From NCBI GenBank assembly GCA_003164475.1, contig PLTL01000356.1, forward strand, positions 1 to 6,625: DNA of 6,625 nt, in the 5' to 3' direction. The notes beneath the pieces were generated by a model. It was not told the DNA's origin, did no database searches, and saw only the letters and a program-made list of their open reading frames with translations. A program made the translations under genes and the position numbers. Origin of the DNA: Candidatus Dormiibacterota bacterium (lineage in GTDB: Bacteria > Chloroflexota > Dormibacteria > UBA8260 > Bog-877). Shown here in pieces: positions 2,853 to 6,625 of this stretch (the first letter of the stretch is position 1; the number at the start of each line of letters is the position of its first letter).

Positions 2853-2862
2853 CTAGGGCGCC
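2849..2862. terminator. Second GC hairpin overlapping the ROK regulator stop codon
   Basis: GGCGC-TAGG-GCGCC forms a 5-bp stem with a 4-base loop; the TAG stop of the - strand regulator (2853-2855) lies within it. Its arms have the same sequences as those of the palindrome at 2823-2836, so the arms of the two hairpins could exchange partners. There is no T-tract, and the function is unproven. Confidence 0.3.
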
Positions 2863-3989
2863 TGATCCCTCACCACCTCGATGGCGGAGGAGAGGGCCCC
2901 GAGCAGCACCGCCTCGTCGCCCAGCTCGCTGACGACTATCCGCGGGCGGAACGGGGTCAACTGCTGCAGCCGTGCCTCCATCGGCTCCCGGAGCAGATCG
3001 AGCTCGCTGCCAACGCCGCCACCCATCACCACGGCCTCCGGGTCCAGCACCGTGGTGACGGCGGCGACCACCAGGGCAAGGTGCTCGGCCTCCGTCGCCA
3101 CCGCGGACAGGGCTGCCACGCCGCCGCGCCGGGCCATGTCGAAGACCTGTCGGGCTGACAGGCGGGGGGACAGCCCCAGGTCGACCGCCGCCCGGACCAC
3201 GCCCCGGGCGGAGGCCACCTCCTCGAACGATCCCCACCGGGCGCCGTAGACCGGGGGCCGGGATGACGCCTCGTCGCCGAATGGAAGATAGGCGACCTCA
3301 CCGGCCGCTCCCCGCGCGCCGGCGTGAAGCCGGCCGTCGACGACCAGGCCCATCCCCAGACCGGTCCCCACCAGCAGGTAGACGAAGGTTCGGAAGCTCT
3401 TCCCCCAGCCTCCCGCCAGCTCGCCGAGCGCCGCCAGGTTGGCGTCGTTGGCCACCGACGTTCGGCCTCCGAGCTCGCCTCGAAGGGCGTCGAGGAGACC
3501 GGGCCGGCCCCAGCGGCGGATCCGGGAGGAGAGCAGCAGGGTCCCGTCGACGGGATCGAAAACTCCCGGGCTGCCCACCATGGTCCAGGCCACGTCGGGC
3601 CAGAGCACACCGGCGCTGCGCGCAACGTCCCGGGCCAGGGTGCTCACCACCCGTACCAGGTTGGGCGCGCTGCGGGCGGCGTTGCGGACGTCCCGCCGCG
3701 CCACCACGGTGCCGCTCAGGTCGGCCATCGCGCAGCGCAGCCAGCTGCGTCCGACATCGACTCCGACCACGTGCCCCTCGCCCGGGGCCTCCTCGAAGAG
3801 CAGGGCGGAGCGGCCGCGACTGGGGCTGCTCGGCCCGGCTTGGCGCACCAGCCCGGCCCGCTCCAGCGTCACCAGGATCGCCCCCACGGTGGGCTGGGAC
3901 AGGCCGGTCTCCTCGGCCAGCATCGGCCGCGTGATGGGGCCGCCGCGACGCAGGCGCTCCAGCACGGCTCTCTCGTTGAGGGTACGCAT
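2853..3989 (-). CDS. ROK-family transcriptional repressor (winged HTH plus ROK sugar-binding domain)
   Basis: This 378-residue protein has an N-terminal winged helix-turn-helix (about 5-52: NERAVLERLRR, then the helix pair MLAEETGLSQPTVGAILVTLE and a basic RGRSALL wing) joined to a ROK domain. The ROK part shows GVDVGRSWLRCAMADLSG (76-93), NDANLAALGE (181-190), VGTGLGMGLVVDGRLHAGARGAAGEVAYLP (207-236) and VVMGGGVGSEL (320-330). It is like XylR/NagC repressors, which leave their operator when a sugar or sugar phosphate binds. The CxCGxxGC zinc motif expected after residue 236 is absent; the segment 237-260 has no Cys. The start is ATG 3987-3989; the upstream purine signal is weak (GGCGGGG-like), so a non-ATG start further up is possible. 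A candidate promoter with an operator-like dyad lies about 180 bases upstream. It probably regulates the sugar locus to the left. Family confident, ligand unknown. Confidence 0.9.
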   Translation of the reverse strand: MRTLNERAVLERLRRGGPITRPMLAEETGLSQPTVGAILVTLERAGLVRQAGPSSPSRGRSALLFEEAPGEGHVVGVDVGRSWLRCAMADLSGTVVARRDVRNAARSAPNLVRVVSTLARDVARSAGVLWPDVAWTMVGSPGVFDPVDGTLLLSSRIRRWGRPGLLDALRGELGGRTSVANDANLAALGELAGGWGKSFRTFVYLLVGTGLGMGLVVDGRLHAGARGAAGEVAYLPFGDEASSRPPVYGARWGSFEEVASARGVVRAAVDLGLSPRLSARQVFDMARRGGVAALSAVATEAEHLALVVAAVTTVLDPEAVVMGGGVGSELDLLREPMEARLQQLTPFRPRIVVSELGDEAVLLGALSSAIEVVRDQAP

Positions 3990-4166
3990 CCGCCGCCGCC
4001 GCCCCGCCGGGGGACGTGGCCGGCGGTCGCCCGCCGGACGGTCTGGATCGACGATCGGGTCAATTCAGTGGCTCCATCAACCCGAATCCACGGCCCGGCG
4101 CGGGGACGACGCTGAGGCGACCCTCCAGCTCTGCGCCGAGCAGTTCGGGCTCGATTATCGGCCGCC

Positions 4167-4195
4167 AGGTTAGCTGGTATGGACCAGTTCGTCAA
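4167..4195 (-). promoter_or_regulatory. Candidate sigma70-type promoter driving the ROK repressor gene
   Basis: Reading the - strand, TTGACG (4195-4190; 5 of 6 to TTGACA) is followed after exactly 17 bases by TAACCT (4172-4167), a TAnnnT-type -10 box common in high-GC bacteria. It points at the ROK repressor and would give a leader of about 170 bases. The spacer is almost filled by the dyad at 4173-4188, so a bound regulator would block polymerase. Confidence 0.55.
4173..4188. promoter_or_regulatory. DasR/NagR-like GntR operator candidate inside the promoter spacer
   Basis: GCTGGTATGGACCAGT contains a perfect CTGGT-N4-ACCAG dyad. From memory, the DasR-type responsive element is ACTGGTCTAGACCAGT; 13 of 16 positions agree, including both TGGT/ACCA half-sites. 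The neighbouring gene encodes a HutC/UTRA GntR protein of the same type as DasR, which is the natural candidate to bind here. Binding itself is inferred. Confidence 0.55.
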
Positions 4196-4196
4196 A

Positions 4197-4224
4197 GGGT
4201 TGGGTAGGAAGGGTTGGGTAGGAA
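4197..4224 (+). repeat. Perfect tandem 14-bp repeat with four G-triplets (possible G-quadruplex)
   Basis: GGGTTGGGTAGGAA occurs twice without a gap (4197-4210, 4211-4224). The G-triplets at 4197, 4202, 4211 and 4216 are separated by loops of 2, 6 and 2 bases, which meets the usual quadruplex pattern. The repeat ends one base before the -35 box of the candidate ROK-repressor promoter and could affect it. Confidence 0.75.
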
Positions 4225-4284: not shown

Positions 4285-5073
4285 TCAGCCGTGCCCGTCG
4301 CCGCCGGACCTTGTCGGCCCTGGGCTCTGCGTCGCTGGGAGTCGGGGGGCGTCGAGGCCGACGTGGAGCTGGTAGCGATCCCCCCGGTAGGCGGAGACGG
4401 TCAGCTCGACCGGACGGCCCTCCGCGAAGGCCCGGCGCTCGACCAGCAGCACCGCGCTGCCCGGCCTCAGCTCCAAAAGCACGGCGTCATCCGGATCCAC
4501 GATCCCCGCCTCGATGGTCTGCTCGCCGTGGTCGAGCTCGATGCCGAAGTGCTCCTCGAGGATCGCGTAGAGCGAGTGGTCGGTCAGCGTCACGTCGTCG
4601 AGTCCCGGAGCGACCAGAACCGGGATGTACGAGCGCTCGACCGCCATCGGCACCTCGTCCGCGGTGCGCAGCCGCACCATCATGTGGACGGGGTCGCCGG
4701 GGCTCAGCCCCAGCCGTTTGGCGACCTGACCGCTGGCCGCGCCGACCCGACGCTGCAGGTCGCGGGAGCCCGGCCGCTGCCCGCGGGCGAGCATGTCCTC
4801 AGTGAAGGAGGTGAGCCGCAACGGCATCTCCGCCTTGGGGCGGGCGACGAAGGTCCCCTTCCCGGCAATCCGGTAGAGCCGGCCCTCTGCAACCAGGTGG
4901 TTGATCGCCTGCCGCACCGTCATCCGGGAGAGCCCGTAGCGGTCGACCAGCTCGCGCTCCGAGGGGATGAGCGCGTCGTAGGCGAGCTCGGCGTCGATCA
5001 CGTCGAGCAGGATCTCGCGAAGCTGGGAGTACTTGGGAACCGAGCTCTGCGGGTCAATCAACACCGACTTCAT
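4285..5073 (-). CDS. GntR-family transcriptional regulator, HutC/UTRA subfamily (DasR/NagR-like)
   Basis: This 262-residue cytosolic DNA-binding repressor has the typical subfamily length. The N-terminal winged HTH (about 12-78) reads PKYSQLREILLD, LIPSERELVDRYGLSRMTVRQAINHLVAEGRLYRIAGKGTFVA; SRMTVRQA is the recognition helix shared with DasR/NagR/YvoA-type proteins and GKGTFVA ends the wing. The UTRA effector domain (about 85-245) starts with LTSFTEDMLARGQRPGS, a hallmark of the group, and continues through SYIPVLVAPGLDD and DHGEQTIEA. Relatives sense amino-sugar phosphates (GlcN6P, GlcNAc6P) or other small ligands; this ligand is inferred from the neighbours. The last 16 or so residues are Gly/Pro-rich and probably disordered. 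ATG 5071-5073 is preceded by GGAGAG (- strand, 5082-5087) 8 bases upstream, so the start is well supported. The palindrome-rich upstream region suggests autoregulation, and a DasR-like operator lies just downstream of the gene. Confidence 0.92.
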   Translation of the reverse strand: MKSVLIDPQSSVPKYSQLREILLDVIDAELAYDALIPSERELVDRYGLSRMTVRQAINHLVAEGRLYRIAGKGTFVARPKAEMPLRLTSFTEDMLARGQRPGSRDLQRRVGAASGQVAKRLGLSPGDPVHMMVRLRTADEVPMAVERSYIPVLVAPGLDDVTLTDHSLYAILEEHFGIELDHGEQTIEAGIVDPDDAVLLELRPGSAVLLVERRAFAEGRPVELTVSAYRGDRYQLHVGLDAPRLPATQSPGPTRSGGDGHG

Positions 5074-5165: not shown

Positions 5166-5192
5166 CGGTGATCACCGGCCCGGTGACCGGTG
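5166..5192. promoter_or_regulatory. Palindrome cluster CGGTGATCACCG plus CCGGTGACCGG upstream of the GntR gene
   Basis: A perfect 12-bp palindrome (5166-5177) is followed by an imperfect copy of the same half-site arrangement, CCGGT-G-ACCGG (5180-5190). CGGTGA recurs at 15-base spacing (5166 and 5181). CACCGG (5173-5178) also pairs with CCGGTG (5187-5192). Repeated half-sites at about 1.5 helical turns in front of a repressor gene suggest an operator for the GntR protein or another regulator; no binding evidence. Confidence 0.45.
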
Positions 5193-5205: not shown

Positions 5206-5325
5206 GACCCGTACCTGAGACCAGAGTAGTCTTGTTGGTACGAGTTGGCGGGCTCATCGGAAACCTGTGCTCCTCGAGGTAGCTCAGGAAGACCTCCGCC
5301 CCTCTCGTCGTCCAGCAGCCCCAAC

Positions 5326-5640
5326 ATTCCTGCCGCCGCGTGGGTAATCAACCAGGGGTGGTTCCGGGGCGGCAATCCGGCGAGCCTGGACATGATCAAC
5401 CAGACCCTTCGCCCGGTCGACGTCCAGGCGGTGACGCCCGAGTTGTTCCAACCCGGGCCAGCGACCCCGGCCAGCTTCGGCGACCCCGTGCGATACCTCA
5501 TTCACCACGGCTACACGCAGTTGACGACCTACCAGCCGGCCAGCCGATTCTGGCCGTTCCAGTGGATCGAGGGCGGCTGACTGCTCGCGCTCTCCCTACT
5601 CCTGATCGCCGCGACCATCGCAGCGACGAGCGTCAGACCG
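5326..5640 (+). pseudogene. C-terminal remnant of a membrane transport protein (ABC-permease-like) with in-frame TGA
   Basis: The frame reads AAAWVINQGWFRGG..., then YLIHHGYTQLTTYQPASRFWPFQWIEGG, then TGA (5578-5580), then LLALSLLLIAATIAATSVRP. The aromatic-rich YQPASRFWPFQWIE followed by a final hydrophobic helix resembles, from memory, the C-terminal end of large actinobacterial-type ABC permeases, where a Trp often opens that helix. TGG to TGA at 5580 would explain the stop. There is no supported start: the frame is closed upstream at 5227-5229, the first TTG is at 5245 without a ribosome-binding site, and the stretch before 5326 is low-complexity Ser/Pro. It therefore looks 5'-truncated and nonsense-mutated. 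Similarity fades near 5625-5640. Beyond that, the continuing open frame is antisense to the small ORF on the other strand. The fragment is clear, the exact family less so. Confidence 0.5.
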
Positions 5641-5813
5641 CTTCGGATCACCGGACCCCTCTCGCCAGCGGCCGCAAGCGCACGCGCGAAGACGCTTTCC
5701 GGGAGGTTGTCCCAGCCGGCGGGCTCTGCACCCCCTCGCCTCGACATGTCGAAGGTTGCCGCGGTGAAGTCGCGACTGATCTCGGTGGCCAGGTCGCCTT
5801 GTCTCTGCATCAT
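5529..5813 (-). CDS. Small unknown ORF overlapping (ATGA) the glycosylase-like gene
   Basis: This frame starts MMQRQGDLATEISRDFTAATFDMSRRGG and runs 94 residues to TAG 5529-5531. I do not recognise the family. Its first ATG (5813-5811) overlaps the TGA stop of the frame-corrected glycosylase-like gene in the classic ATGA arrangement, and its codons from 5813 to about 5640 keep high G/C at third positions, so a translated, coupled gene was probably here. The C-terminal third (from about 5640 to 5529) is antisense to the permease remnant and becomes SASSQPPSIHWNGQNRLAGW, which looks like readthrough into foreign DNA; the native stop was probably lost at a junction. Because of the frameshift upstream, this ORF is now in frame with the front of the glycosylase-like gene. 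No signal peptide; one weakly hydrophobic stretch (LTLVAAMVAAI). It may be a remnant. Confidence 0.4.
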   Translation of the reverse strand: MMQRQGDLATEISRDFTAATFDMSRRGGAEPAGWDNLPESVFARALAAAGERGPVIRSGLTLVAAMVAAIRSRESASSQPPSIHWNGQNRLAGW

Positions 5814-6512
5814 TGCGCCGCCAGTGCCTCCCGCGTTGCCTCCGCGACACGGGTGATCGAGGCGTTCGAGACGCCGACCGCGGCGCACAGGTGGCGAGTA
5901 GGTATCACCGCCACATGCCTCGAGCCCCTCCACGGTGGCGCGGGCCCACGTCCCTTCCAACGCATCGAGCCTCCGGCCCGCAGTCCAAGCTGCCAGCTCG
6001 GGAGCGCTCGCACATAAGGCGTCCAGTGCCGGGCGGCCGTTCGCAACGATCGCCCGGGGCTGGATGTCTCGCAGCATGGCCAACGTCAGCGGCCACTCGT
6101 GCGCCAGCACCGCGGGGTCATCGCATCCCTCGCCGCCCTCGCTGCGGAAGCGGATGATCTCCAGCACCAGCCCGTCCGCTCCGAGGTGGAATTCGCTTCC
6201 CACCGCGGTCACTCCGATGCGCTGATACTTTCGATACAGCATGTCCCACTGATCCTCGGGCGCGTCGAATCGCGCCTCGCAAAAGGACAGCCAATCCTCG
6301 TAGTCGGTCGCGATGGTGGGGACGGCTTCCTGCGGATTGTAGCTGGGGTTATGTCCAAGGAAGACCAGGCCTGCGCTCGCCGTGCGTCCGTCGAACGGCT
6401 CCGGCAACTGCCACCGGTCGTCGGGAACACCATGCTGGAGGTTACGGAATTCATGGCAGGGGTGGCTCGGTTCGGCGTAGGCCGCGTGCGCATCGTCGAA
6501 GACTGCGTGCGG
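5810..6512 (-). pseudogene. Uracil-DNA-glycosylase-fold-like protein, start lost and frameshifted
   Basis: The reading frame from 6512 down contains ASAGLVFLGHNPSYNPQEAVPTI, then ATDYEDWLSFCEARFDAP, and later LRDIQPRAIVANGRPALDAL. GHNPS followed by a distant P-x-x-I-V-x-x-G-x-x-A pattern is the layout of the uracil-DNA glycosylase superfamily (DNA repair; motif A plus a later Rossmann-like strand); the exact family is not certain. After VEGLEA (about 5912) this frame loses coherence, while another - strand frame picks up RHVAVIPTRHLCAAVGVSNASITRVAEATREALAAQ and stops at TGA 5810-5812. That segment is a plausible C-terminal motif B and final helix. Removing one base around 5910 joins the two. 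At the 5' side no ATG, GTG or TTG start follows the 23-bp repeats, so the true start was replaced. Without correction the frame runs on to 5529 as a fused product. Confidence 0.5.
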
Positions 6513-6625
6513 ATTTCGGGTGAAAGCGATCACCCGTTTCGGTTGAATCCGACCACCTGTTTCGGCGGAATCCGACCAGGCATTTCGGTTGAATCCGATC
6601 ACCTGTTTCGGTGAATCCGACCACC
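6504..6625. mobile_element. Possible terminus of an IS21-family insertion sequence, partial
   Basis: The 23-bp repeat array begins just where the glycosylase-like coding sequence loses its start, as expected for an insertion. IS21 elements usually end in TG; TG occurs at 6504 and 6508, just before the first unit, so the true end is probably there. No transposase is in the window. Inference from the repeat type. Confidence 0.45.
6514..6625. repeat. Five contiguous imperfect 23-bp repeats, probable IS21-like element end
   Basis: Units begin at 6514, 6537, 6560, 6583 and 6606, each starting TTTCGG. The next bases are mostly TTGAATCC and the unit continues GACCACCTG or GATCACC. Unit 1 is the most divergent (GGTGAAAGCGATCACCCG). 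Unit 3 has CGGAATCC and ends in AGGCA. Unit 5 lacks one T and is cut by the window edge. There are no spacers between units. From memory, such TTTCGG...GAATCCGACCACC arrays are the multiple terminal repeats beside istA in some IS21-family elements; the transposase genes would lie off the right edge. Plasmid-type iterons (about 22 bp) are the alternative. Confidence 0.75.

Follow-up and report, generated by a model that had tools for sequence, protein, structure and literature searches.

In the window, by which is meant the whole 6,625-nt stretch of DNA from Candidatus Dormiibacterota, uncultured soil bacteria, analysed here, a dyad in the spacer of a promoter directed at a ROK-family repressor gene is probably the operator of the adjacent NagR/DasR-like GntR regulator, which would repress by exclusion, be released by amino sugars and so switch ROK on from a promoter derived from an operon. 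Direct control of the ROK gene by the GntR protein through this predicted operator is supported in silico, and we infer the binding, the inducer, the repression and the sign of the circuit from sequence. If true, such a repressor-over-repressor switch would link two regulator families that are said to serve separate pathways in Streptomyces. The locus also suggests that Dormibacterota have a NagR/DasR-type amino-sugar regulon of which a ROK repressor is a direct member.

Promoter and dyad in the gap between the GntR and ROK genes

Since the ROK gene starts at 3989 and the GntR gene stops at 4285, the site (4167-4195) falls within the gap between them, which measures 295 bp. The earlier note had read TTGACG and TAACCT as a promoter pointing at the ROK repressor on the - strand, with a spacer of 17 nt (4189-4173), and this was borne out by five loci in which the hexamers recur with an identical spacer length. 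The same note had described the spacer as filled by a dyad, CTGGT-N4-ACCAG, resembling the DasR-type element at 13 of 16 positions, which was also found to hold. In the + strand reading the dyad is CTGGT-ATGG-ACCAG at 4174-4187, and GCTGGTATGGACCAGT in the promoter spacer agrees with the DasR consensus at 13/16. With three mismatches to ACTGGTCTAGACCAGT, the 16-mer at 4173-4188 was the sole match at ≤3 mismatches in the window (expectation 0.01), and a match at this threshold occurred in 1 of 200 shuffles; the form of the consensus given in the literature is A(G/C)TGGTCTAGACCA(G/C)T. The exact core TGGT-N4-ACCA occurred once in the window, and at ≤2 mismatches it was counted 33 times against 17.3 expected, so that the loose motif is not specific.

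Features of the window around the predicted operator
Feature	Coordinates	Strand	Basis
ROK-family repressor, N-terminal HTH	2853..3989	-	Pfam ROK 9.5e-37 and HTH models; shared start; dN/dS
Putative scar in the ROK leader, left by deletion of a ROK sugar-kinase-like gene	4060..4140	-	tblastn E 1.6e-9; blastn against L001
Putative -10 hexamer TAACCT	4167..4172	-	equal spacing in five loci; poor TATAAT match
Predicted NagR/DasR-like operator	4173..4188	-	13/16 to dre, 0.01 expected; conserved in L001, L002, L121, L122
Putative -35 hexamer TTGACG	4190..4195	-	TTGACG in window, L001, L002, L121; TTGACT in L122
GntR/UTRA regulator, NagR/DasR-like	4285..5073	-	Pfam GntR and UTRA; PDB NagR/YvoA, DasR; contact residues kept

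A generic sigma-70 scan of the window called no promoter at the site, because TAACCT matches TATAAT at only 3/6 positions, and the case for the putative promoter rests on its conservation across loci rather than on consensus score. In a scan of genome contigs from which the best 80 loci were retained, the closest were L001 (GntR 97% identical) and L002 (95%), which belong to the Candidatus Dormiibacterota isolates palsa_874 and fen_879, respectively; both are MAGs. The earlier note had suggested a search for the dyad in relatives, and the promoter with the dyad in its spacer was indeed found again in four related loci, L001, L002, L121 and L122 (genomes G001, G002, G004 and G019). Across the five loci the -10 variants were TAACCT, TAACCT, TACCCT, TAAGCT and TAGACT, each 17 nt from TTGAC[GT]. 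The comparison covered a block of 29 nt, from the second base of the -35 to one base past the -10, with 60 ungapped bases on each flank. The window matched L121 at 25/29 positions in the block (flanks 17/60 and 16/60) and L122 at 21/29 (17/60 and 18/60), L121 and L122 matched each other at 23/29 (29/60 upstream and 11/60), and the close relatives L001 and L002, whose flanks are shifted by indels, matched the window at 29/29 (28/60 and 14/60) and 28/29 (26/60 and 33/60). Against the more distant L121, the predicted promoter with its dyad is a conserved island. When the intergenic stretches of L121 and L001 were aligned with blastn, just two matches fell below E 0.05, namely this 33-bp island at E 5e-8 and the region around the ROK start at E 0.004.

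No terminator was found in the window between the GntR gene and the site, and read-through from gntR could therefore produce ROK regardless. The ROK leader is about 170 nt long, part of it scar, and no obvious Shine-Dalgarno sequence was noticed in it on inspection. Upstream of gntR, nothing in the window matched dre at ≤3 mismatches; a two-mismatch dyad (5166-5177) and a poorer one (5232-5243) are all that is located there. A 14-bp tandem duplication, AAGGGTTGGGTAGG, lies at 4195-4224, immediately upstream of the -35, and is present as a single copy in L001 and L002.

On the + strand the window also holds convergent genes, for a 477-aa protein and a PIG-L deacetylase, together with the end portion of one for an ABC ATPase (TOBE_2). 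The 477-aa protein (371-1804), 97% identical in L002, shows by eye a kinase-like motif, VGFDLGAS, overlaps the start of the deacetylase and had no match in Pfam and NCBIfam searches. At the other end, an open frame of 364 aa was seen at 5529-6623, whose 357-aa form had no match in the same collections, and 6514-6625 is taken up by a 23-bp tandem repeat (TTTCGGTTGAATCCGACCACC...) in about five copies. An Rfam search and a megablast against a plasmid collection returned no match, and the 7 pattern matches in viral contigs included none from a relative.

The GntR protein and its inferred amino-sugar regulon

The earlier note had described the product of the neighbouring gene as a HutC/UTRA GntR protein with a DasR-like recognition helix, and the sequence agrees with a NagR/DasR-type protein. 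It matched the GntR winged HTH (PF00392, 9.1e-15) and UTRA (PF07702, 4.3e-44) families, and the related solved structures in the PDB were NagR/YvoA (E 2.8e-47) and DasR (4.5e-41); the HutC model for histidine utilization, TIGR02018, scored 140.3 bits, under its cut-off of 220. In NagR, Arg38 and Arg48 are described as reading two guanines and Gly69 as anchoring the wing (PMC4333415). All three residues are kept in the window protein as R40, R50 and G71, which were invariant among 30 aligned sequences (window counted in). In the effector pocket for GlcN-6-P/GlcNAc-6-P, 12 of 15 NagR residues are identical, with I166L, I209V and A224T as the differences, and this conservation makes an amino-sugar phosphate the likely inducer. 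GntR proteins of this type (E ≤1e-70) were present in 4/110 genomes of the class of G001, namely G001, G002, G004 and G019. The window GntR is thus NagR/DasR-like by sequence and the likely reader of the dyad.

The regulon was read from these four related genomes, the window's own genome standing outside that set, in which genes were called from a GC-frame heuristic combined with family searches and no gene finder. The motif TGGTCTADACCA had 11 sites in the four, and all 11 adjoined amino-sugar genes: nagA, SIS proteins nearest NagB-II/GlmS, GH20 hexosaminidases and family-1 ABC sugar-binding proteins. The nagA assignments rest on TIGR00221 scores of 238.5 and 228.9 bits, with that of L001 (225.4) just below the cut-off of 225.65, and the SIS proteins remained under the NCBIfam cut-offs. 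The other 106 genomes of the class held 6 sites altogether; by genome count, at least 11 of 17 sites in 4/110 genomes has P ~1e-12, an optimistic value, the four genomes being related.

For TGGTMTRKACCA, 19 sites were recovered in the four genomes among the matches listed, and 16/19 were linked to nagA, nagB-like, GH20, ABC-transporter or ROK genes; the remaining three were TGGTCTGGACCA elsewhere, two of them within called ORFs. Four of the 16 linked sites (L001:10327, L091:8582, L124:2085 and L125:10278) fall inside the longest called ORF, so that a later start must be assumed there. For the last three the family match begins further in, and for L001:10327 the assumption rests on relatives, where the calls are shorter. 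Across the class, neither the exact TGGTMTRKACCA (at least 73/110 genomes) nor CTGGTMTRKACCAG at ≤1 mismatch (at least 103/110) discriminates.

In G001 and G002 the dyad at the nagB-like gene likewise lies inside an 18-nt spacer, from TTGACA to TACAGT; no TTGACA was seen at the dyad of the nagB-like gene of G004. At the ABC promoter the dyad is placed, by our own reading, past the probable -10. The positions at the ROK, nagB-like and ABC promoters would all fit with exclusion of RNA polymerase. No such site was found upstream of the ABC operon that adjoins ROK in L002; the inverted repeats there were considered for a ROK operator, and the candidate was rejected as a mere 10-nt palindrome. Taken together, the sites look like a NagR/DasR-type amino-sugar regulon with the ROK repressor gene as a member.

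Related dyads were noticed beyond these genomes. One TGGTCTATACCA site is found at G059:C70:2899, in a genome carrying a 46%-identical GntR, and at L176:9916 and L178:10269 one and the same dyad, AAGTGGTATTGACCACTT, precedes a sugar ABC operon and a GntR paralogue (39-40% identical). In 11/78 actinobacterial loci (L003-L080, including Streptosporangiales), core dyad variants chosen beforehand, TGGT(CTAG/CTGG/CCAG)ACCA, were placed upstream of the GntR homologue at a distance of ~2.0-2.6 kb (L012, L014, L022, L027, L028, L031, L035, L038, L050, L072 and L076). By eye alone, neighbours in the four loci inspected resemble PTS and SIS genes, and at L012 and L072 the dyad is near such components.

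The kinase-like gene, the ROK repressor and the predicted sign of the circuit

In L001 the promoter and the ROK repressor gene are separated by an additional ORF (3051-3761; Pfam ROK 2.5e-25) that contains N gaps. The best full-length relative of this ORF, P0242 (321 aa), shares 70% identity with it across 96% of the gapped sequence. The same promoter in G019 is followed by the start of a homologous kinase-like gene (P0242 residues 11-51 aligned, E 1.6e-10), of which the contig carries just the beginning; here GntR and the promoter have a gene of the GH18 family (Pfam E 1e-7) between them. ROK proteins have DxGxT as their first phosphate motif, and in the kinase-like protein it is altered, by eye, to EVGAS/AVGAS. 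The putative scar in the window corresponds to P0242 residues 270-284 and 310-321, followed by a stop, and that of L002 to residues 297-321 only; each retains a part missing in the other, and they therefore represent two different deletions. In G004, with its promoter directly before ROK, no kinase-like remnant was found (best tblastn E 0.05). From these layouts and scars, the operator is probably the old control point of an operon of the kinase-like gene and the repressor, and the window promoter was probably inherited from it. This likely first owner of the promoter was missed by the earlier note, as was the occurrence of the same motif before the nag genes of relatives. Close relatives that have kept or lost the kinase-like gene would form a natural series on how one deletion rewires a regulatory operon.

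The ROK gene downstream gave dN/dS values of 0.19-0.37 (six pairs) and is therefore kept by purifying selection. A misannotated ROK start was considered and rejected, since the closest full-length homologues, P0122-P0126 and P0128, share the MR(T/S)L start, extending further at the C-terminus; the more distant homologues P0127, P0130, P0132 and P0133 have additional N-terminal residues, but the window frame has a stop ~25 codons upstream with no start codon between. The NagC model NF047937 gave 64.1 bits, under its cut-off of 650.

In the proposed mechanism, at low GlcN-6-P/GlcNAc-6-P the GntR protein would sit between the -35 and the -10 and exclude RNA polymerase, keeping ROK off, and would also block nagA, nagB-like, GH20 and sugar ABC genes. 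At high amino-sugar phosphate it would leave the DNA, and the catabolic genes and the ROK repressor would be expressed together, the latter repressing its own targets when its own sugar ligand is absent. Use of chitin-derived amino sugars thus probably turns the ROK repressor on, and the outcome would be a hierarchy, a brake or a preference order, not a release. In the window lineage the kinase-like gene would have been lost and the operator left directly on the repressor gene. More tentatively, a dedicated repressor-over-repressor switch may have arisen from a GntR-controlled kinase-repressor operon through repeated deletion of its first gene; in it, amino-sugar use would install ROK, which would shut a competing sugar system.

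The same history could be taken to mean that the promoter-operator is a relic of the deleted kinase-like gene, with ROK transcribed by accident and the circuit devoid of selected function. The presence of the kinase-like gene after the promoter in L001, its start directly after the same promoter in G019 and the two different scars of the window and L002 would all suit a relic, but we regard it as unlikely, because ROK is under purifying selection and the more distant G004 also has the promoter directly before ROK with the dyad kept. Moreover, the control of ROK is probably older than the deletion, as ROK in L001 follows the promoter and the kinase-like gene.

The earlier note had proposed a two-level circuit in which one amino-sugar signal, acting through ROK, could release a further set of genes. 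Its first level, GntR control of ROK, is likely and stands in silico, but the release has the wrong sign: if the signal inhibits GntR, GntR inhibits ROK and ROK inhibits its targets, the signal raises ROK and shuts those targets unless the ROK ligand is present. Release would require ROK as an activator, or GntR as an activator here, against which the dyad between the -35 and the -10 argues, and it is accordingly given hardly any weight. The prediction made here is thus opposite to that first reading, and it is testable. Equally improbable is that the dyad is read by another protein, be it ROK itself or another HutC-type GntR. Most sites of the HutC subfamily are described with GT and AC 4 nt apart, and the related genomes contain other GntR homologues; but the same motif accompanies nag genes where this GntR occurs and is rare elsewhere in the class, and the window GntR keeps the base-contact residues of NagR.

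Comparison with NagR, DasR and CsnR

Among known regulators, the window GntR is close to NagR (YvoA) of Bacillus subtilis, likewise a GntR/HutC protein with UTRA, with which it shares R38, R48, G69 and the 12/15 effector residues. NagR is described as controlling nag genes through GG-containing dre dyads, and control here would be the same in kind. Compared with the natural B. subtilis sites as described, operators of the window type carry GG in both half-sites, and the inferred regulon adds the ROK repressor, GH20 and an ABC importer. With DasR of Streptomyces coelicolor the likeness lies in the dre consensus and in nag and chitin genes, as far as these are described, whereas just 4 linked sites per genome with this motif were seen here among the matches listed. 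About 40 regulatory genes are reported for the DasR regulon (PMC4398421), and repression of glucose kinase is attributed to DasR and to the ROK regulator Rok7B7 alike (PMC8966007). The chitosan genes of S. coelicolor are said to be without dre elements and dependent on the ROK repressor CsnR, and GntR (DasR, chitin) and ROK (CsnR, chitosan) are described as separate systems (PMC6097792). None of the titles listed in a search of open-licence literature concerned a ROK repressor gene under a DasR/NagR-type operator.

The operator described for the chitosan ROK repressor, the CsnR box, is AGGAAANTTTCCT. At ≤1 mismatch it had no occurrence in G002, G004 and G019 and one in G001. A CsnR-type target for the window ROK was rejected: the box stood beside a 50%-identical ROK in 2/5 genomes (G062 and G053), the matches in G089, G074 and G069 lay elsewhere, and a reversed-box control also matched (G069 3, G074 1, G004 1). 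A near-box before the GH18 gene of G019 (L122:3345) was likewise discarded, with two mismatches and at chance level by rough estimate. In other genomes of the class, CsnR-type boxes AGGAAATTTTCCT, AGGAAAACTTCCT and AGGGAACTTTCCT were observed at L175:163-175, L180:7953 and L180:9339, before ROK genes and, in L180, also between GH4 and kinase genes; these boxes probably mark a chitosan regulon.

The window ROK resembles CsnR-type repressors in its HTH plus ROK domain, and in 3 of the 6 loci fetched, ~50% identical ROKs of the class have GH4, ABC and BadF-type kinase genes as neighbours, an arrangement resembling csnREFGHK as described. Against CsnR, its HTH differs, and its gene is placed instead under a dre-like site.
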